From NCBI GenBank assembly GCA_030149525.1, contig JASBRJ010000188.1:1-43663 (forward strand): 43,663 nucleotides of DNA, given 5' to 3'. Positions 2,021 to 32,652 of this stretch are shown here, one piece after another. Source of the DNA: a bacterium. Its GTDB lineage: Bacteria > Vulcanimicrobiota > Xenobia > Xenobiales > JADMJV01. Position 1 is the first letter of the stretch, and every line of letters starts with the position of its first letter. Both the position numbers and the translations under genes were made by a program. The notes under the pieces are model-generated. The model did not search any database. It was not told the origin of the DNA and was given only the letters and a program-made list of their open reading frames with translations.

Positions 2021-2554
2021 ATGAGTTTTAGAGTCGGAGTCAAACCTTCGAGAAGAGAGCGACGCCTCCAGGGCGTAGCCCACAAAACACGGGGGTTGAC
2101 GCTTCTTGAGACTATGCTGGCTCTGATCATGTTGAGTCTGCTCATCGTGGGTGTTCTCGGACTGCTGGGCAGTCTGTTGGTGGCCAGTACCAAGTCCACA
2201 GATACGACCGCGGGAACCTTCGTGGCCCAATACCTCTTTGACAGAGCGAGTGAGACCGGTCCTCCCGACCCAGCGGGGGGAGTGATCGAAGATACGGAGC
2301 AGTTGCATTCCCACGAAGAGGAGCAACCCGTAAACTATCGGTATCGAATGGAATGGACAAAGGTCGGTGAAGCCTCGTCCTACTACGTGGGAACCAAAAA
2401 AGAGCGGAGCCAATTTGGGCCGGACTTGTGGCATGTAAAGGTGACAGTATGGTGGATGGTCGAAAACCCTGAGGACGGACGTGCTGAAGGGGGAGGTCGA
2501 AGAACGATAACTATGGAGCGATTGATATCGTTTGAGCCTCCAAAGGTGGAATGA
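2021..2554 (+). CDS. Prepilin-type minor pseudopilin, PilV/GspI-like
   Basis: A 177-residue protein with a type III prepilin signal: a long basic leader (residues 1-28) ending in G, then L-T-L-L-E and a hydrophobic helix (about residues 29-51), the E at mature position 5 being the standard assembly residue. Prepilin peptidase would cut after the G. The remainder is a small globular region without recognised motifs. It is first in a PilV-PilW-PilX order with two further genes, overlapping the next gene by 4 nt (ATGA). Known role of such proteins: priming or capping type IV pili or type II secretion pseudopili in the inner membrane. The leader is longer than the usual 6-20 residues. Confidence 0.85.
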   Translation: MSFRVGVKPSRRERRLQGVAHKTRGLTLLETMLALIMLSLLIVGVLGLLGSLLVASTKSTDTTAGTFVAQYLFDRASETGPPDPAGGVIEDTEQLHSHEEEQPVNYRYRMEWTKVGEASSYYVGTKKERSQFGPDLWHVKVTVWWMVENPEDGRAEGGGRRTITMERLISFEPPKVE

Positions 2555-3291
2555 CCTTTCGACGAGAGACTTACCGTAGAACCGGCAGACTGAGCACTCA
2601 CCCTGTCGGACGCCGAGATCGGGGCTTCACTTTAACGGAGGCCCTGGTTACAATTCTGGTGTTTTCTTTTTTTCTGGGCGTCCTGTTCTTCACGATCTCC
2701 TACGGATTTCGAACGTTTTCAGTAGCGGTGGCCAGGTCCGATGTGACAACGGAGGCCCGTCGGTTGATGCTTTTCATGGAGAACGAGCTTCGAAGTTCGG
2801 CCTATTTTTCCATCAAGACTGTGAAGCGAACCGTGGGAGGATCGCTTGCTAGAGACGGTCTCTGTTTTGTCTCGCTTCTCGATTGGTCGCGGCCGGACGC
2901 TTACAACGCCACCGAAGGTCGGCCTGACTGGGACCGTTATCTCATCTATTACGCAACCAAGGAGACACCTTCGGGAAGTTTGGTGCGCACGGCTATCAAT
3001 CCGCAATCGGCTTTGGACGTGGGCTCGTTCCCCTATCCCCCTTTTGCCGACAAACCGTTCGACTACATGCTAGACGATCCGCTTCAATATAAAGGGAGTG
3101 ATCTCGCCAATACAAGAATCCTGGCCTCCAAGGTGAAATCTTTTTCGGTCAGCACGGTGGCCACGAGTTCGGAGGTAGACGTGAGAACGATTCTACGCCA
3201 GAACGGGATCATGACACGGCGAGGAGACGGAAATCGCGAAGGCGGCACTTTTGAGTTACACTATAGAGTACATCCACAAAATACAAACTGA
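2551..3291 (+). CDS. Prepilin-type minor pseudopilin, PilW/GspJ-like
   Basis: A 246-residue protein. A basic leader ends 'RDRG', followed by F-T-L-T-E (mature Glu5) and a hydrophobic helix at about residues 26-47, giving a clear prepilin cleavage site. After the helix comes 'TTEARRLMLFMENELRSSAYF', the typical amphipathic continuation of PilW/GspJ-like proteins, then a beta-rich globular domain. Translation is coupled by ATGA overlap to the PilV-like gene, and the PilX-like gene follows 11 nt downstream. It probably forms part of a pilus or pseudopilus tip complex. The equivalent gene in the second cluster is at 40350. Confidence 0.85.
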   Translation: MTFRRETYRRTGRLSTHPVGRRDRGFTLTEALVTILVFSFFLGVLFFTISYGFRTFSVAVARSDVTTEARRLMLFMENELRSSAYFSIKTVKRTVGGSLARDGLCFVSLLDWSRPDAYNATEGRPDWDRYLIYYATKETPSGSLVRTAINPQSALDVGSFPYPPFADKPFDYMLDDPLQYKGSDLANTRILASKVKSFSVSTVATSSEVDVRTILRQNGIMTRRGDGNREGGTFELHYRVHPQNTN

Positions 3292-3302
3292 GGTTCAGAA
3301 TT

Positions 3303-5672
3303 TTGGCGTCCAATAATCAAGGCAAAGCTAGAAGTCGCAGGGGGATCGCTCTCATCAGTGTGCTCTCGGTTTCCGTCATCCTGCTCGCCATGGCGGGGGC
3401 GTTTTTTGCAGCGCACAAAACCGATCTGGTGCTCATGGGTACGTCTCAGAATCTTGAGAAGACGAAGAACGCTGCCCTATCGGCATCGGAGTATTTCCTC
3501 TACAAACTTCAAAACGATCAGAGGTTCGGGAGCATAGCGTTTCGAGAGGATCTCGTTGAACATGAGACCTTCCCTCCCGGCTCAAGTGAGCCGCTTCTTG
3601 AGATAGATCTCATCGGCGAGGACAACGATGTCAAGAAGAACGTGATCAAAGGGGAGATGCCCTCCACCGGACTCACCTTCGAGGCCCGTCTGGTCAATAA
3701 CCTGAATGCGACCAGCCCTTACGGCGACGCCCCTCCTCGCACGGCCAGGGTATGGATCACGGCCAGGCGCGGCGCTGTGGTCAGGAGAATGGATTTTATC
3801 CTCAAACGAAGTCCCATAGCCTCAGCTTCCATGCTGAGCGGCGGCGATATCCATGTTCAACTGACAAATTCTGAGAACGGTCACTGGTGGCTGGGGGGGC
3901 GTCAGCCGTCCGGCAACGCTGTTCGTGCTAATGGAACAATTTATGGCCCGGAGGTGCTGAGCCCGACAGGAAGAGCTGTTCTGTTTGAACCTCCGGAAGG
4001 TCTGGCCACTAAGATCAAGCCCCCTTACGGTGTCATTCAGGGCAAAAGGCTGAAGATGCAACTGGACGGCGTTTCCGACTTTCTCAAACCCGGTGATGAA
4101 GAACTCTTGAAAGCCGAGGAGAACATAAAAGGCGTTCTCAGTCCCGGTAGTTCGGAACTCAAGATTCCGGAATTAGACAGCGACGATCTCTCCTCTCCCT
4201 CCACGCGCTTTGAGCTACCGGCAGGCAAAGTGAGCTTCCGTACCGTCACCACCGGCAACAAGGTGGTCCACGAGCTGCTCGAAGATGGAAAAGTGAAGGC
4301 CCGTTACGACGGTTTGAATCGTAACGACCGATTCTACACCTGGAACGACAGCCAAAGTCTGGCGGTAGCGACTTTCGACTTGGAAAACCGGGTCATGTCG
4401 GTCAGGGAGAACGTCGAACTGCAAGCCCCCCGCGGCGTTTCTTTTGAACTGGCCGCTGAAGACGAATCCGGCGCCAGTACCGGCAATCAGCCGACCCTCG
4501 TCCTAGGGAGCGAAGCGGTCGGTGCCAGTTTGAAAGCGACCGGGATCAACATCGAAGGCTCGGTAGGCGGCATGGGAGCGCTCAAGGCTGGAAAGGGCGA
4601 CCTGAAGATTCGAGCCAAGAGCACCCTTTCCACGACGCCTGACTTCGGCATTGCACTCCATTCAGAGCGAGATGTAATTCTTTCTAAGCCCGCCCAGTCG
4701 AATCAAGACGGTATTCCAACCGATTGGGACGCTTTTTCCAAGGCCTACAAGAAGCATTCCATTCCAGGAGTCGATAATTGGGCCCAACAAGACGACGCGA
4801 AAAAGTCGGAAATCGCGGCCCAGTTTTCCTCTGTAAAATTGTACTCGCCCGGAGAGACCAATCTGGGCTCCGACCCCATTTGGCTTAGTCTTACCAAGGA
4901 TTATCCAGCGGACCAGGCCGCCAAGAAGGCCTATCTTGAGTGGATGCGCCAAGAAGTTCCGGAGGTGACACGCGAGGTGCCCTTAGAGCCCGGGGACCCG
5001 GGCTACGAACCGCCCGTCGATCCTGCGCCGCCTGTGGACCCGGTCGATCCCGCGGATCCGATTGACCCCGCCGATCCTAGCCTGCCAGTGGACCCGGCTG
5101 ATCCGCCTCCGCCCCCGCCGCCTCCAAAGACGAAGACGGTTGTGGATCAACCCTACGTTCCACCCGGTCCCGGAATCAATGTGGAAAACTACGTGCGGCT
5201 CCGAGAGTATCTCAAGACCCTCAAAGCGAACAAGCCCGATCCCAGCTGGCTTGGGTCCAGTGAGCCGGATATACAACTGGCTCGTCGTAACGACGTCAAG
5301 GCGATGATTCGTAACCAGCTATCAAGTTTTCAGTTGGCCGCCGGCCAGACCACCATTGAAAACAACGGTCATGTGACCCTCAAGTGGAACAAGTTGGGCC
5401 AGTACTTCACTGGACAGAACCCTTTCCTCACGGGCTTTAGCCCGGACATGAAGTTCAGGGGCCTGATCTACGCCGGCGGGCGATTCTCATTCGACACTCA
5501 GAAGCAGGGAATTGAACTCGAAGGAGCCCTCATAGCAGGCGATGACATGAGTATCACTAACGCCACCGGTGCCCGATTTATCTATAACTCGGAGCTTCTG
5601 GAGAATCTCTTCTCCACGAACGAGGGTGACTATAGTGCCAAACTTGAAAAAGCCTTCTGGGCCTACTACTAG
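3303..5672 (+). CDS. Large PilX-like pilus assembly protein with Pro/Asp linker
   Basis: A 789-residue protein beginning with a short basic stretch then one transmembrane helix (about residues 15-35, 'GIALISVLSVSVILLAMAG') followed by a coiled 'TKNAALSASEYFLYKLQND' segment, the N-terminal pattern of PilX/GspK-like minor pilins. The extracellular part is far larger than canonical PilX. A low-complexity linker of DP, DPADP and poly-Pro lies at about residues 565-610, and the C-terminal region ('GLIYAGGRFSFD', 'GALIAGDDMSI') resembles the repetitive beta-type end seen in the second cluster's PilX-like protein. Start is TTG 3303, 11 nt after the PilW-like stop. Its 3' end overlaps ispF by 38 nt. 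Function as a surface or tip adhesin-like pilin is inference. Confidence 0.75.
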   Translation: MASNNQGKARSRRGIALISVLSVSVILLAMAGAFFAAHKTDLVLMGTSQNLEKTKNAALSASEYFLYKLQNDQRFGSIAFREDLVEHETFPPGSSEPLLEIDLIGEDNDVKKNVIKGEMPSTGLTFEARLVNNLNATSPYGDAPPRTARVWITARRGAVVRRMDFILKRSPIASASMLSGGDIHVQLTNSENGHWWLGGRQPSGNAVRANGTIYGPEVLSPTGRAVLFEPPEGLATKIKPPYGVIQGKRLKMQLDGVSDFLKPGDEELLKAEENIKGVLSPGSSELKIPELDSDDLSSPSTRFELPAGKVSFRTVTTGNKVVHELLEDGKVKARYDGLNRNDRFYTWNDSQSLAVATFDLENRVMSVRENVELQAPRGVSFELAAEDESGASTGNQPTLVLGSEAVGASLKATGINIEGSVGGMGALKAGKGDLKIRAKSTLSTTPDFGIALHSERDVILSKPAQSNQDGIPTDWDAFSKAYKKHSIPGVDNWAQQDDAKKSEIAAQFSSVKLYSPGETNLGSDPIWLSLTKDYPADQAAKKAYLEWMRQEVPEVTREVPLEPGDPGYEPPVDPAPPVDPVDPADPIDPADPSLPVDPADPPPPPPPPKTKTVVDQPYVPPGPGINVENYVRLREYLKTLKANKPDPSWLGSSEPDIQLARRNDVKAMIRNQLSSFQLAAGQTTIENNGHVTLKWNKLGQYFTGQNPFLTGFSPDMKFRGLIYAGGRFSFDTQKQGIELEGALIAGDDMSITNATGARFIYNSELLENLFSTNEGDYSAKLEKAFWAYY
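5010..5133 (+). repeat. Pro/Asp low-complexity linker repeat inside PilX-like gene
   Basis: Degenerate tandem coding repeat specifying DP, VDP and DPADP units followed by eight prolines. The DNA repeats variants of GTCGATCC and CCGATC in frame. It probably encodes an extended flexible stalk between the membrane-proximal and distal parts of the protein. Confidence 0.6.
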
Positions 5673-7032: not shown

Positions 7033-8811
7033 ATGAAGCATCCTCACCAAAAAATAATGGGAGTTCTTCTCCTAACGCTTTTCTTTGTCTCTACTCTCCC
7101 TTCGCTGGGAGCCGAGGGATCGTTCTCGGTCGAGCATGTCAGCGCTCGGGTGGACAAGAATACGCTGCGCCTCGTGCTCCGAACGGCTCAGCCCGATCCT
7201 ACCGTGTCGGCCTATTTTTTGTCGGCTCCGGATCGTCTGGTCATCGACATCGCGGACTCCAAAGGTTCGCTCAAACTCGGTCGCAAACCGGCTACCAAAA
7301 TGGTCCGAAGCTGGGCTGTGAAGAGAAGTGGTCTGAACCGAACCAGCCTGGTTTTAGGCTTGCGCTACCGTCCGCCTAACTCCCACATAGGATTAGACGT
7401 GGTGGGCAATTCCGTGGTGGTGGAAGTGTCCACCGAGCCGGGGCACAAAGACAAGTGGAAGCTCACCGAAGGGGTGACCTGGGTTAGGGAGGACCGCTTT
7501 CTGGCCGGCCGATGGACCCGCACCAATCAACTCCTTTTTGATCCTAAGGACAAAAATGTGGAAGTTTTGGTGGGCCTTGCCAACGAAAAGACCAACGCCC
7601 GTGAAAAGCTCTCCGACATGGTTCGGCGGTACGACGCCCTGGCGGGTATTAACGGTGGTTTCTTTGCCGGAGGGGGGGGAGCCCTGGGACTGGTTTATCG
7701 GGACGGGCGAATGATCGTCCCTCATGTGTCTCGTCGACCTCCTCGTTCCGGTTTTGGGATGACCGAAGACGGCAGGCCTCTCTTTGGTCGTTTGGCCGCC
7801 GCCGGTCCCACCATCAAAGATCTGGACGGAGCCGATTGGTCTCAGGTGAAGCTGGCTCTGGGGGGCGGGCCGCGACTACTCAAGGACGGCACCACAAAGA
7901 TCACCGCCGATTTGGAAGAGTTGGGGCCCAAGGGCAACAACATCACTCGTGTGGCCGCTCGCACCGTGGTGGGAATGACCAAGAGTGGAACACTCCTTTT
8001 CGGGACGGTCACCGGCTTTCATGACAATCACAAAGAAGGGGTCAAATTCGGGCCGCTGGTTCAATGGCTCAAGACCCTGGGAGTTCAGGAGGCGGTCAAT
8101 TTTGACGGCGGCTCCTCCGTGGATATGGTGGTGGGCCCGCATATCGTCTCCGACGGTCCGGCCAATGCCAGCAAGGAAAAGGCTGTGGCCACCGCTTTGT
8201 TGATCAAGGATAAGCGAGAAAGGTTGTTCCCCGAGACGGCCACCTGGGATTTCTCGACCCAGACCTTACCGGCCGACGGCAAGAGTACCGCGACCCTTCG
8301 AGTTCAATTGAAACAGGGGAACGGTCAACCTGTGCCCGACGGCACTCATGTGCACCTCTTCGGTCATGGAGTGAACGTTGACCCGGCGGAGTCAAAGACC
8401 AAGGACGGCCAGGTCGAGGTGAGGATAAAATCCGTTCTCAGGCCAGGGCAAGCGCGAATCACTCTCAACGCCGGACCCCTCACTGAGAAGAGGACTTTCG
8501 TGCTCAAGGCCGGTGGCGTCAAGGACCTCTTGATCGAGGGGGTCGGTGCTCGACCGCTGGACAACGAAAAGTCCATGCAGACAGCGACCGTGAAGGTGCA
8601 GACGGTCGATCAATGGGGTAACGGAGTTCCTAAGCAAGCCATCAAATGTTCCGTCGACGGGACGGAGGCCGTGGCCTTTACCACCGACCATCGGGGAATT
8701 ATGGCGCTGGACGTCGAGGTCTCTCGACAAGGCGGGACGTTCACGGTGAGCCACCCGACCGGCGGCCAACATACCTATCATATTCCAGCTTTCGAATCTC
8801 CGAAGGAGTAG
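7033..8811 (+). CDS. Secreted AMIN-domain / phosphodiester glycosidase (NAGPA-like) protein
   Basis: A 592-residue exported protein. Signal peptide at residues 1-27 (ends SLGAEG); an AMIN-type beta domain at about 30-135 ('LVIDIADSKGSL', 'VVGNSVVVEVS'), which in other proteins binds peptidoglycan; a NAGPA/DUF2233 phosphodiester glycosidase domain at about 195-390 with 'AGINGGFFAGGG', 'LALGGGPRLL', 'RVAARTVVG' and 'AVNFDGGSSVDMVV'; and a C-terminal region (about 400-590) that looks like two invasin-type Ig-like domains. The family removes sugars linked by a phosphodiester, so a wall-glycan or teichoic-acid-like substrate is plausible. ATG 7033 has no Shine-Dalgarno; ATG 7057 is also possible. 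Confidence 0.85.
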   Translation: MKHPHQKIMGVLLLTLFFVSTLPSLGAEGSFSVEHVSARVDKNTLRLVLRTAQPDPTVSAYFLSAPDRLVIDIADSKGSLKLGRKPATKMVRSWAVKRSGLNRTSLVLGLRYRPPNSHIGLDVVGNSVVVEVSTEPGHKDKWKLTEGVTWVREDRFLAGRWTRTNQLLFDPKDKNVEVLVGLANEKTNAREKLSDMVRRYDALAGINGGFFAGGGGALGLVYRDGRMIVPHVSRRPPRSGFGMTEDGRPLFGRLAAAGPTIKDLDGADWSQVKLALGGGPRLLKDGTTKITADLEELGPKGNNITRVAARTVVGMTKSGTLLFGTVTGFHDNHKEGVKFGPLVQWLKTLGVQEAVNFDGGSSVDMVVGPHIVSDGPANASKEKAVATALLIKDKRERLFPETATWDFSTQTLPADGKSTATLRVQLKQGNGQPVPDGTHVHLFGHGVNVDPAESKTKDGQVEVRIKSVLRPGQARITLNAGPLTEKRTFVLKAGGVKDLLIEGVGARPLDNEKSMQTATVKVQTVDQWGNGVPKQAIKCSVDGTEAVAFTTDHRGIMALDVEVSRQGGTFTVSHPTGGQHTYHIPAFESPKE

Positions 8812-28060: not shown

Positions 28061-31000
28061 CTACACGGTATAGATCGTCTCGCTCTCCAAACGATAACGC
28101 TTTACAGGCACAGAATCCTTGATCCTATGGGAACTTCGTTCATCCAAGATGATCGCTCCATCGACCCGATCGGAGAGGGATTGAAGATGATGAGCTGCTC
28201 GGACCGGGGCTCCGAAGACCGAGTACTGCAGTTGACCTGACGTTCCCATGAGGGAGAGATTGATCTCACCGGTGGTGATCCCGGAGCCTACTCTGAGAAT
28301 TCCCTCCTCAAGGCCCGCCTCTTCAGCGACCTTGGCAACGACTTCCGGTACCTGCTGGGCCGAACGCACGGCGGCGAGGACCGGATTGTCTACTGGGTCG
28401 AGGGGCCCGAAGACCACAATCTGGGCATCTCCCTGATAGGTGATGAGGTGCCCTCCGTTCTTCTCGTAGATGGCGGCGGTCTTTTCGTGGTAGCTGTTGA
28501 GAAGTGACAGGATCTCGGAGGGGGAACGACCTTCTGATAGTGTGGTGTAGCCACGTATGTCGGTGAGAAGAATCGTTGCCGTGGTGGTGATATCGGCGAC
28601 CGTACCGTCGCGTTCCAGCTGTTCTTGGAGGCGCCGAGGAATGTAGTTTGTCATAGCTCGATTGGTTTCCGTGACGCTGAGAACCCAGCCGAAGATAACC
28701 GAGGTGAGTGCTATGACCGAGAAGCCCGATCCTACGAAGAGTCCGGCCGAGGCCGACGACGTGGCCAGAACAATCCCGGCGGCCACGCCCGCCACGAGGA
28801 GGGCTATCTGGCTTGCTGCGGAGGTGAGCCTCCAGGATATGTAAAGGATGAGAGTGCCGAAAGCCCAGACGAGGCTCCAGGTGAAGACATTCGTGGAAAC
28901 ATCGTCAAGCAGACCACCGGTGAGCAAGGTTTGCAGACTCAGAGCGTGGATGAGGGCCCCTTTGAGAGAACCTACCGGCGTCTCAAAGGCGTCCGACCGA
29001 CCGCGGAGGTTGTCTCCGCAAATGACCGTCTTGCCTTTCAATTCTTCAAAAATCGGATCTCCGGGGTCCAGCAAGCGATGATAGGACACGGTTTGAGGAA
29101 GAGGCCCCCAACGGATGAGGTACTCGCGACGCCCCTTCAGAGATTCCGCCACTTCGGGCTTGAGAATTCTCACCATCTTCTGTGCTATCCCCGGACCGAG
29201 AAGAGTGTGTTGGTCGAGGGGAATCTCCCACAGAGCGTATCGGAACTCGTCGGCTGTGTTTCCGGGAGCGTGATTGATGAGGCCCCAACGGTCGCTTTGA
29301 GCAAGTCCCGGGAGAAGTTGAGGAGAGAGCGCATCGCCATATCCGTCTTCCCTGGCGGCGGCCGCCACCAGGGCTTGAGAATGGTTGTTCACGGCTTGAG
29401 TCAGGGCCAGATCTTCTTCCGGTGTCGACGGATCCTCGAAGAGAAAATCGAGAAAGACGCATTTCGCTCCGGCTCTCACACAATTTTCAATAACCTTGGC
29501 GTGGAGGTGTCGTGGCCAGGGCCATTCCCGTTGAGCCAGACTCTCCTCGTCCAGGCCGGCGAACACAATCGGGGCGCGGCGAGTGTTGGGAGTCAGTGAG
29601 TCGAGAAGCATTTCGTGAAAGGGGAGTTTGCTGCTCAGAGGGACAGTCACCAGCAAACTTGCTAGACTGAGGGCCAGAAAGGCCTGCCGGGGGAGGTTGG
29701 CACTATCGTTGGTAAGCGGCGTTGCTTCCACCGGGGGGGGAGAGAAGAGGGATTTCACTTCCCACACTTTGAGCGGTTCGGCTCGACCTTTCACTGAAAT
29801 CTCCCCCACCTCGGAGGCTTCCGCCTTAGGCCCCAGAGGTTCCACCGTGTCGACCGATGCCAGAACAGGCGCGCCTGTCTTTTTGGCCTGGCCCATGAGG
29901 CGCGCGGCACTATTGGTGGTGTCGCCCACGGCAGCCACACTATGGTATTGGCCACCCCCCACCTGCCCGGTGGCCACAGGCCCCGTCACTACCCCGCAGA
30001 AAACAGCGTTGTCGCCGTCGGGGGTCTCCAGCAGTTGGTTCACTCTGGTCACGATGTCCAGGGCGCAGGCGAGGGCCTGAGAGCGGTGGTTGGCTTCTCC
30101 TTCCAGGCCGAAAGCTATCATTTGAGCATCCCCTTGAAGATCGACCAGACGTCCGCCGAATCTGTTCACCGAGTAGCCTATAGTTTTGGAATAGGCGGCT
30201 CGGGCGTCGTGAGACCGTTCCAGGTCATTGCTTTCCAGGTCTTTGATCGTTTCGGGAAGATTGGTAAAGAGGATGGTCGCCACTATTTCTTCTCCGGATT
30301 TTTGCAGAGGCGTGAGCCCGCCCAGGCTTCTCAGGAGCAGATGAACTCGCCATGAACGAAGCAAAAGATGAGCCAGAAGGACCGTCAGCCCCGCCAGTAG
30401 GACAGCGCTTTGATGGAGAAAGAACCCCCTGGAAAAGATGACCTGGCTGAAGCCCAGCCAGGAGCCGGCCCAGGCGAACCACCAGCCCATTGCCGAGGAT
30501 GTGCGCCGACCTGGTAGCACCAGGCTGAGAAAGGCGAGAAAAAGCAGGCAAGTGAGAATGTTGAGGGGTTGGGGAAAGGGGGCAAACGAACTCTGGGGGG
30601 AGAGCAAACTGTTGAGGACGGTCCCGTAGAGTTCGATTCTCACCATATCGCCCACCGGTGTGTCGAACTCGATGGAGTCGGCCACATTGAGATACATGCC
30701 GAGGAGGATGAGGCGCCCTTGGAGGGAGATCTCTTCCTTGAGGAGATTGAGAAGCGGCACCGGTTGCAAAGGGTTGAAGTCGACCGCCCCCTGCTCTTTC
30801 GAAGACGACGTTGCGGAGAGAAAGCGGGAGTACGAGGAGCGGTAAGAATAGCTGTCGGCGACCTGGAAGAAAGGGTAAAAACGGCCCTCGGAGTCGGTCT
30901 TCAGCTCGCCTCCGGGGAATTTTACGGAGTTTTTGGTGACCTCGACTTGAGCTGGTGAAAGACCACGAAACTTTAGTAACGTCACTAAAGGCGGCGCGAA

Positions 31001-31381
31001 CTCAAGAGCCTCTCCTTCCCTGCGGTAAAGATAGATGGAGCGGAGCAGTCCGTCGGAGTCGGGCTTGAAGAACGGTTCGAGGTTCTGCCCCGTGATATCC
31101 ACGGCAAAAGTAGGCAGGGCTTCGGCGATCTGGGAAAGCTCTTCCTGTCGCGCCCCCTCGGCGTAGGCCTCCCGGTCGATAGCGGAAAGGACTAGTTCCG
31201 GCGCCATTTTCGGCTCGCCGTACCTCTGGCGGACAAGCGCCACTTGATAATCGTAAAGATCGGTTTCCAGGCTCGAATGGGGGAGGGTTTGCCAGCCTAG
31301 AATCCAGGCAAGGAACCCTACGAGGAAGAGAATTCTACTTCCCGGCTTAGGCTTGAGTGCTCCGGTTGGAGATGGCTTCAT
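28061..31381 (-). CDS. Tandem CHASE2-class III nucleotide cyclase (two sensor-cyclase halves)
   Basis: A 1106-residue membrane protein made of two similar halves. Half 1: N-terminal helix (15-33), CHASE2 sensor (about 38-265, 'VGDMVRIELYGTVLNSLL'), three membrane helices (272-342), cyclase domain (about 365-545). Half 2: helix (565-583), CHASE2 (590-825, 'AFETPVGSLKGALIHA'), three helices (832-902), cyclase (935-1100). Class III cyclases need two metal Asp and an Asn/Arg pair. Domain 1 has N374 where the first Asp belongs, D418, and intact D487, N490 and R494. Domain 2 has both Asp (D941, D985) but A1058, R1061 and H1065 replace Asp, Asn and Arg. Neither has the usual substrate Lys. Coupled to the FecR gene by TGATG. 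A composite active site is inferred. Confidence 0.88.
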   Translation of the reverse strand: MKPSPTGALKPKPGSRILFLVGFLAWILGWQTLPHSSLETDLYDYQVALVRQRYGEPKMAPELVLSAIDREAYAEGARQEELSQIAEALPTFAVDITGQNLEPFFKPDSDGLLRSIYLYRREGEALEFAPPLVTLLKFRGLSPAQVEVTKNSVKFPGGELKTDSEGRFYPFFQVADSYSYRSSYSRFLSATSSSKEQGAVDFNPLQPVPLLNLLKEEISLQGRLILLGMYLNVADSIEFDTPVGDMVRIELYGTVLNSLLSPQSSFAPFPQPLNILTCLLFLAFLSLVLPGRRTSSAMGWWFAWAGSWLGFSQVIFSRGFFLHQSAVLLAGLTVLLAHLLLRSWRVHLLLRSLGGLTPLQKSGEEIVATILFTNLPETIKDLESNDLERSHDARAAYSKTIGYSVNRFGGRLVDLQGDAQMIAFGLEGEANHRSQALACALDIVTRVNQLLETPDGDNAVFCGVVTGPVATGQVGGGQYHSVAAVGDTTNSAARLMGQAKKTGAPVLASVDTVEPLGPKAEASEVGEISVKGRAEPLKVWEVKSLFSPPPVEATPLTNDSANLPRQAFLALSLASLLVTVPLSSKLPFHEMLLDSLTPNTRRAPIVFAGLDEESLAQREWPWPRHLHAKVIENCVRAGAKCVFLDFLFEDPSTPEEDLALTQAVNNHSQALVAAAAREDGYGDALSPQLLPGLAQSDRWGLINHAPGNTADEFRYALWEIPLDQHTLLGPGIAQKMVRILKPEVAESLKGRREYLIRWGPLPQTVSYHRLLDPGDPIFEELKGKTVICGDNLRGRSDAFETPVGSLKGALIHALSLQTLLTGGLLDDVSTNVFTWSLVWAFGTLILYISWRLTSAASQIALLVAGVAAGIVLATSSASAGLFVGSGFSVIALTSVIFGWVLSVTETNRAMTNYIPRRLQEQLERDGTVADITTTATILLTDIRGYTTLSEGRSPSEILSLLNSYHEKTAAIYEKNGGHLITYQGDAQIVVFGPLDPVDNPVLAAVRSAQQVPEVVAKVAEEAGLEEGILRVGSGITTGEINLSLMGTSGQLQYSVFGAPVRAAHHLQSLSDRVDGAIILDERSSHRIKDSVPVKRYRLESETIYTV

Positions 31382-32652
31382 CAGCGCCGGGCAGTAGCCC
31401 GTTCGTTGCTTTTTTCGGCCGATTCTTCCACTAGGAAGAAGCCCTCGAGAGCTTCCCCGGCGACCTCATTTTCAGTGTTCAAAGGGATAATTCGAAATTT
31501 GTGTCGGCCGGGCGGGAGCGGTTCGGCATCTTCCGGCATGGTGTAGTTAAGCTGATCGGTGATGTCGGCCCATTCCACCTGACCCTCTTCGGTAGGGGCG
31601 AAAAAAGCGATTCCGTATTTAGGGCAAGACAAGCTGGTCCAATTGATAGTGGGACGGGGAGCAAGAACAGTGAGATTTTCTCCTGCGCTAAGGGGTGTTG
31701 AGTCGTTCGTTTTCCTTGCTGCCGTCTCTGAATCGGGTGCTTGACCTGCCAGAATTTTTTGAATATCGGACATGGTCTCATCCGGGGTCGAGGCGGTGGT
31801 CGTTTCCCGTCCTTGCGGTGCGTCGGCGAGCAGTTGCTCTAGTCTTGCCAGAGTCTCATTCGCCTTGTCGAAGTCTGCTTCGTCCTTGTACTTGTCCACC
31901 GCCTCGTTTCTCTCTTGACCATTTCGGGCTCGATTTTCAAGAATAGCCGTCACCTTGTGACTAGTCTTATTGAGAGTGGCAGTTCTTCTTGGGAGGTCGG
32001 CCTTGAGAAAAGCGTAGCCAAGATCGTTGATGGCACCCAAAAGTTCATCGTACATAGGGCCGAGATCGTCTTTGAGGCGCTGCCGCAGATCGGCCTGAGA
32101 GAAACTGTTCTGGGAAGTGGACGCGCCCGAACCAAAGATAATCTCATCACCCGGACGAGCTCCCGCGTTACCTCCATCGGCCTCCACTCCCACGTCGCCT
32201 TCGAGCAGACTTAGCTTGGTGCTCCCGTCGGGTAGAAGTTGAACCACAAACTCCGTACCTCGGATACCCATCACCCCGCCGGCGGTTCGAATCTTCACCG
32301 GATGAGCTTTCTGTTTATCGAATTTGGCCCAAAAGGTGCCTTTTTTGAGGTGGATCGCTTCCCTGATAACTTCGCCTTCTCGCTCTGAGACGATCTCTAC
32401 CTCACAGTCTTTGCCCAGACTTAGCTTCCCCCCCAGGAAAAATCGGATGTTCGCCCAGGAGCCCGGGTCGGTCTTGAAATGGTTGCCGATACTGGCATTT
32501 TGCTCAAGAAAAGAGCGGTACCATTGCGCTGTCTCGGTCTTTTGACGAAAGAGGTTTTCTTGACCATACATCTTTTCCACTTGCGCCACTGGTTCAGCGG
32601 CAAGCAAGCTGGTTGAGAGAGCTAGAGCGCAGATGATATGTTTTATTTTCAT
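31381..32652 (-). CDS. FecR-domain secreted protein
   Basis: A 423-residue protein with a signal peptide (1-18, 'IICALALSTSLLAA') and a FecR domain at about 60-170 ('GSWANIRFFLGGKLSLGKDCEVEI', 'KIRTAGGVMGIRGTEFVV', 'LSLLEGDVGVE'). A helical region with possible coiled coil (about 185-270), a disordered stretch and a C-terminal beta segment ('RPTINWTSLSCPKYGI', 'LPPGRHKFRIIPLN') follow. Its stop overlaps the cyclase ATG as TGATG. FecR next to CHASE2-cyclases is a known arrangement, for example in cyanobacteria, and suggests a periplasmic partner for the CHASE2 sensors. GAGGAGATC upstream of ATG 32652 gives a good ribosome binding site. Confidence 0.88.
   Translation of the reverse strand: MKIKHIICALALSTSLLAAEPVAQVEKMYGQENLFRQKTETAQWYRSFLEQNASIGNHFKTDPGSWANIRFFLGGKLSLGKDCEVEIVSEREGEVIREAIHLKKGTFWAKFDKQKAHPVKIRTAGGVMGIRGTEFVVQLLPDGSTKLSLLEGDVGVEADGGNAGARPGDEIIFGSGASTSQNSFSQADLRQRLKDDLGPMYDELLGAINDLGYAFLKADLPRRTATLNKTSHKVTAILENRARNGQERNEAVDKYKDEADFDKANETLARLEQLLADAPQGRETTTASTPDETMSDIQKILAGQAPDSETAARKTNDSTPLSAGENLTVLAPRPTINWTSLSCPKYGIAFFAPTEEGQVEWADITDQLNYTMPEDAEPLPPGRHKFRIIPLNTENEVAGEALEGFFLVEESAEKSNERATARR

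Follow-up and report, generated by a model that had tools for sequence, protein, structure and literature searches.

Complementary catalytic losses point to one composite active site in a fused CHASE2 cyclase of the Vulcanimicrobiota

Can two cyclase domains that have each lost part of the catalytic machinery make up one working site when they lie in the same bacterial chain? This question was raised by a gene in the window analysed here, a stretch of 43,663 nucleotides from the phylum Vulcanimicrobiota (the current NCBI name for Candidatus Eremiobacterota, or UBP9), its contig being contig 149 of an 8.27-Mb assembly in 398 contigs. The genome is rich in cyclic-nucleotide signalling, as judged from 15 class III cyclase matches and 23 cNMP-binding matches. 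The gene lies on the minus strand (28061..31381), was delimited from its open reading frame and Pfam matches, and encodes a fused CHASE2-cyclase-CHASE2-cyclase protein of 1106 aa. Two stretches of the protein matched Guanylate_cyc (PF00211; E 3.3e-20), as expected of class III cyclase domains, and two matched CHASE2 (PF05226; E 1.3e-36), in agreement with the two sensors named in a preliminary description of this DNA.

Each half follows the order of a CHASE2 receptor cyclase, in which CHASE2 leads through transmembrane helices to the cyclase domain. The first CHASE2 region (about aa 40-260; 30602..31264, minus strand, from Pfam with approximate borders) looks degenerate; CHASE2 was also weak or absent by Pfam in the corresponding genes of relatives, and one of these, in genome G003, gave no CHASE2 match at all. 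It is followed by cyclase domain 1 (D1; aa 361-545; 29747..30301, minus strand), by the second CHASE2 domain (aa 586-845; 28847..29626, minus strand, the best Pfam stretch) and by cyclase domain 2 (D2; aa 930-1106; 28064..28594, minus strand). Residues, profiles and a structural model were used to place the two cyclase domains, of which D1 is C2-like and D2 is C1-like.

In its standard form, class III catalysis depends on both metal Asp and on Asn and Arg. The catalytic residues were written as a six-letter signature (first metal Asp, Lys position, second metal Asp, Asp, Asn, Arg), which read N-D-D-D-N-R in D1 and D-T-D-A-R-H in D2. D1 has N374 at the first metal Asp (30260..30262, minus strand; N, S or G in ten orthologues) and retains D414 at the Lys position, Q416, D418 and the D487-N490-R494 triad of base and transition-state residues (29900..29923, minus strand; invariant in ten orthologues). 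D2 retains the first and second metal Asp, D941 (28559..28561, minus strand) and D985 (28427..28429, minus strand), both invariant in ten orthologues; it has T981 at the Lys position, and its Asp, Asn and Arg are replaced by A1058, R1061 and H1065. N374, D487, N490, R494, D941, D985, A1058, R1061 and H1065 were all found exactly as the preliminary description had given them; it had overlooked D418, the second metal Asp, which D1 keeps. The losses in the one chain are complementary and leave the residues of one active site, as in a pseudoheterodimer.

The protein is very probably a class III nucleotide cyclase of the membrane, acting as a heterodimer or pseudoheterodimer with one composite site. 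D941 and D985 of D2 would hold both catalytic metals and the phosphates, and D1 would supply the base pocket (D414, Q416 and D487) together with the transition-state residues N490 and R494. Packed head to tail, the two domains would form one working site and a dead mirror site. As for that dead site, the Asn-to-Arg replacement at R1061 (codon 28199-28201 of the window) was invariant in 10/10 D2 domains; an Arg of this type could form a salt bridge there with the invariant second metal Asp of D1, and the site is perhaps structural or regulatory.

A homologue search was carried out in 58 related genomes and then in 149 genomes of the phylum. Among the 149, exactly ten D1-type genes stood above a clear score gap (at least 262 bits, the next match reaching 192). 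Two of the ten are fused chains of the source genome, namely the window protein and a 1206-aa paralogue on contig 267 (locus L016), which also matched Guanylate_cyc (E 3.8e-26). The remaining eight are separate genes, found in five genomes of the same family (G001-G005) and three of the same order (G006, G011 and G012), and each is directly followed by a D2-type gene. Start and stop overlapped by 4 bp in 7/7 intact split loci, and in G006 the second gene of the pair appears frameshifted. The ten D1/D2 pairs thus come from one phylum and three families, the second fused paralogue included. UBA6111 was left out of this count; at its locus L096 (6600-8620, G010:C32) both genes survive as remnants, with internal deletions and frameshifts and with the same residues where readable, which could mean either that one functional unit was lost in parallel or that the assembly is in error.

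The signature was [N/S/G]-D-D-D-N-R in 10/10 D1 domains and D-[T/N]-D-[E/D/A]-R-[K/E/H] in 10/10 D2 domains. Close homologues could have carried full catalytic sets or other patterns of degeneracy; all ten pairs instead showed the same complementary pattern, which is therefore not a matter of chance. Since the ten pairs form one orthologous lineage, they testify to one origin that has been retained and not to ten independent events. The single-gene relatives, from this and other phyla, had complete metal, Asn and Arg sets, reading DDDDNR in 21 cases and DxDDNR in nearly all others.

Each half might instead pair with itself and use an unusual chemistry, as a D1-D1 homodimer with one metal Asp and a D2-D2 homodimer without Asn and Arg, and such an arrangement could draw on the second metal Asp kept in 10/10 D1 domains and on the invariant Arg at the Asn position of D2. 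We consider this highly improbable, as neither domain alone has the two metal Asp plus Asn/Arg that standard class III catalysis needs. The pairs are, moreover, always adjacent, with the 4-bp overlap wherever they are intact and split, and in UBA6111 both genes look degraded together.

A further explanation would make the protein a pseudo-cyclase receptor that has lost catalysis and keeps these residues for a structural role. The long branches of the window copy, the non-canonical Lys position and the gamma-phosphate Arg, whose position is not conserved in D2, would all fit such a receptor. On the other hand, when the composite site was defined as both metal Asp of D2 plus the Lys-position Asp, Asp, Asn and Arg of D1, it was retained in 60/60 cells over the ten pairs. 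The equivalent mirror site was retained in just 11/60, 10 of them being the second metal Asp of D1. It is not expected of a dead pair that exactly one complementary set should be kept. General conservation was also low, only 15% of the fully filled columns being invariant in D1 and 22% in D2, and loss of catalysis thus appears improbable.

The preliminary description had supposed that the complementarity evolved within this chain, and the relatives speak against it, as in them it is spread over two distinct genes that overlap, and the chain arose by fusion later. When 61 cyclase domains were placed in a maximum-likelihood tree, D1 formed one clade (100/98) and D2 another (99/98), and both nested in a family (100/97) whose members are complete and have Asp at the Lys position. 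The branching within D1 mirrored that within D2. The two fused copies were sisters with support of 99/84 in D1 and a weak 82/14 in D2; the window copy had the longest branches of the pair (1.53 and 1.26) and still kept all six composite residues. Its faster evolution could reflect relaxed constraint. As eight other genomes encode the halves in neighbouring separate genes, complementary heterodimerisation predates fusion. Read from the sequences, the simplest history would be that a homodimeric CHASE2 cyclase duplicated, that the two adjacent genes underwent complementary loss, and that fusion and a further duplication came later in this lineage.

Profile comparison assigned the halves to the two types seen in known heterodimeric cyclases. 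The D1 profile matched the C2 half of AC9, AC5 and sAC as well as sGC beta, and the D2 profile matched the C1 half of AC5, AC8, AC9 and sAC as well as sGC alpha; the IIC2 chain gave only E 0.014 with the D2 profile. The order of the roles is thus reversed with respect to mammals, which upholds the opposite N-to-C order proposed earlier.

AlphaFold2 models of both paralogues were built from alignments of the fused chains and D2 genes (A8 and A9), and the D1 register was checked with alignment A5. Alignments that mixed fused, D1 and D2 sequences (A3, A4, A6 and A7) were dropped, as both halves fell on one set of columns. Confidence was moderate for both models: pLDDT was 59.8 and pTM 0.48 for the window protein, with both cyclase domains mostly at about 75-90, and pLDDT 69.5 and pTM 0.54 for the paralogue. 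The best PDB matches of both were full-length human membrane adenylyl cyclases (AC9, AC5 and AC8). Against the soluble C1-C2 structure of AC9, TMt was 0.67 for the window model and 0.68 for the paralogue model; against sAC, the window model reached 0.57-0.58. For the paralogue model, TMq was about 0.40-0.44 with two-domain targets as compared with about 0.21 with one-domain targets. Both models superposed on both catalytic domains of AC9 simultaneously, and since such TM scores require both cyclase domains to be superposed together, the models hold a head-to-tail class III dimer. From this superposition we infer that the metal Asp of D2 (D941 and D985) would face Asn and Arg of D1 (N490 and R494) and be available with them over one dimer interface. 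Structure prediction could have set the domains apart; in both paralogues it gave the class III dimer arrangement instead. The single composite site put forward in the preliminary description therefore draws support from the pattern in all close homologues and from the models of two paralogues.

Domain swapping would place the composite site between chains, either of two fused proteins or of FecR-bridged complexes. The halves are encoded as separate proteins in eight other genomes, where pairing must be between chains, and bacterial class III cyclases are known to dimerise in this way (PMC4821796, PMC9552081). For both paralogues, however, AlphaFold2 packed D1 against D2 within the same chain, a single-chain prediction that is itself compatible with a swap. 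We regard this intermolecular version as unlikely, though by a much smaller measure than the homodimeric or the catalytically dead one.

At the Lys position, the protein has Asp414 in D1 and Thr981 in D2. The absence of the usual Lys from both halves, as described earlier, was thus borne out, but it is a subfamily trait and not special to this protein: the loss precedes the origin of the pair and was seen in 21 complete relatives with Asp at this position; in 16/21 of them the residue two places ahead of the second metal Asp was Gln. Judged from the sequences, the phylum contains a cyclase subfamily whose members are complete in other respects and in which this Asp is ancestral. These CHASE2-type cyclases (loci L056, L057, L060, L068, L100-L115 and L118) occur in Eremiobacterota, with one in Armatimonadota, and mostly carry the motif D-[YF]-Q-G-D-A-Q. 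Another cyclase of the source genome (L010, G000:C289) lay on a very long branch and read DDDPNR, Asp occupying the Lys position and Pro the Asp position.

Base recognition relies on a Lys/Asp pair in adenylyl cyclases and on Glu/Cys or Glu/Ala in guanylyl cyclases (PMC6592433). The window protein had Asp414 and Asp487 instead, and showed neither the adenylyl cyclase signature (Lys paired with Asp/Thr) nor the guanylyl cyclase one (Glu paired with Cys/Ala). Base recognition has been ascribed to Q144 in the cytidylate cyclase EaPycC and to D94 in the uridylate cyclase BcPycC (PMC11224242), and in our alignment these residues fell two positions before the second metal Asp, where D1 has Gln. Equating D94 of BcPycC with the Lys position by numbering was rejected, since the 7r65 alignment put it two residues before the metal Asp. 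The Gln at this pyrimidine-cyclase position may hint at the substrate and is taken as a lead only. Identity with a Pycsar PycC was also rejected: PADLOC PycC scores reached at most 78 bits as compared with 379 bits for a genuine single-domain PycC, and the matches here were generic, no higher than for ordinary cyclases. It is a rather doubtful possibility that this lineage, with its split and fused members, is an obligate heterodimeric bacterial class III cyclase producing a non-standard cyclic nucleotide, such as cUMP or cCMP, at its single composite site.

Directly upstream of the cyclase gene, a FecR-domain protein of 423 aa is encoded (31381..32652, minus strand; Pfam FecR E 1.8e-11), with a hydrophobic N-terminus resembling a signal peptide. 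The coupling of the two genes proposed earlier held, as the junction reads TGATG and the FecR stop and cyclase ATG share one base. A FecR gene also precedes the cyclase gene or genes at every other locus examined (L016, L058, L062, L063 and L066). The fused paralogue at L016 has FecR-domain genes on both sides (2298-3392 and 7069-8658), and in genus g2 two FecR genes lie ahead of the D1/D2 pair. This co-conservation suggests that FecR and the CHASE2 cyclase form an extracytoplasmic sensing complex. As a CHASE2 sensor and membrane helices lie ahead of each cyclase domain, a signal from outside, possibly presented by the FecR protein, would alter the packing of the halves and thereby control the synthesis of a 3',5'-cyclic nucleotide.

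Mammalian transmembrane AC1-AC9 (class IIIa) likewise have, in a single chain, two membrane blocks with a cyclase domain after each, and one active and one degenerate site, with metal residues and base or transition-state residues from different domains. They differ in having the C1-type domain N-terminal and the C2-type domain C-terminal, two 6TM blocks where the window protein has CHASE2 and TM blocks, and Lys where it has Asp at the base position. Because of the reversed order, the window protein would work like such an enzyme but is not classed as one, and, being nested in a bacterial homodimer-type family, it arose independently of AC1-AC9. The inverted order is not unprecedented. In alveolate guanylyl cyclases GC1 provides nucleotide and transition-state residues and lacks one metal Asp, and GC2 provides both metal Asp (PMC6592433); TgATPaseP-GC, PfGC alpha and the Paramecium and Tetrahymena GC share the order of the window protein, but are eukaryotic, carry P4-ATPase-like domains and use an E/A base pair for GTP.

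The split pairs resemble sGC alpha/beta and the heterodimeric rhodopsin cyclases (PMC8815786) in having two distinct subunits with different roles from separate genes, although those are eukaryotic and have other sensors. Clade A PycC of Pycsar has two consecutive cyclase domains (PMC11224242) and so resembles the fused protein as a bacterial chain with two class III domains; on PADLOC models the fused cyclase scored far below genuine PycC. Single-gene bacterial CHASE2-class III cyclases, presumed homodimeric, share the domain order of each half, and the pair nests among them, but they hold the full catalytic set in one chain.

Bacterial class III cyclases have been described as monomers that homodimerise, which one of these two papers calls a fundamental difference from the mammalian pseudoheterodimers, and the mammalian enzymes have been inferred to derive from duplication and fusion of a bacterial gene (PMC4821796, PMC9552081). 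Measured against open-access journal articles, a heterodimer with complementary losses departs from this homodimer view. Catalytic domains of Rv1625c carrying D300A and R376A complement each other in receptor chimeras (PMC4821796), so a composite site of this type works in principle. One phylum preserves the steps of an independent case, from complete single genes through adjacent complementary pairs to the fused chain. The order of events, with complementary loss before fusion, and the role of the dead second site thus become testable in bacterial proteins, and the pairs point to an uncharacterised cyclase subfamily.
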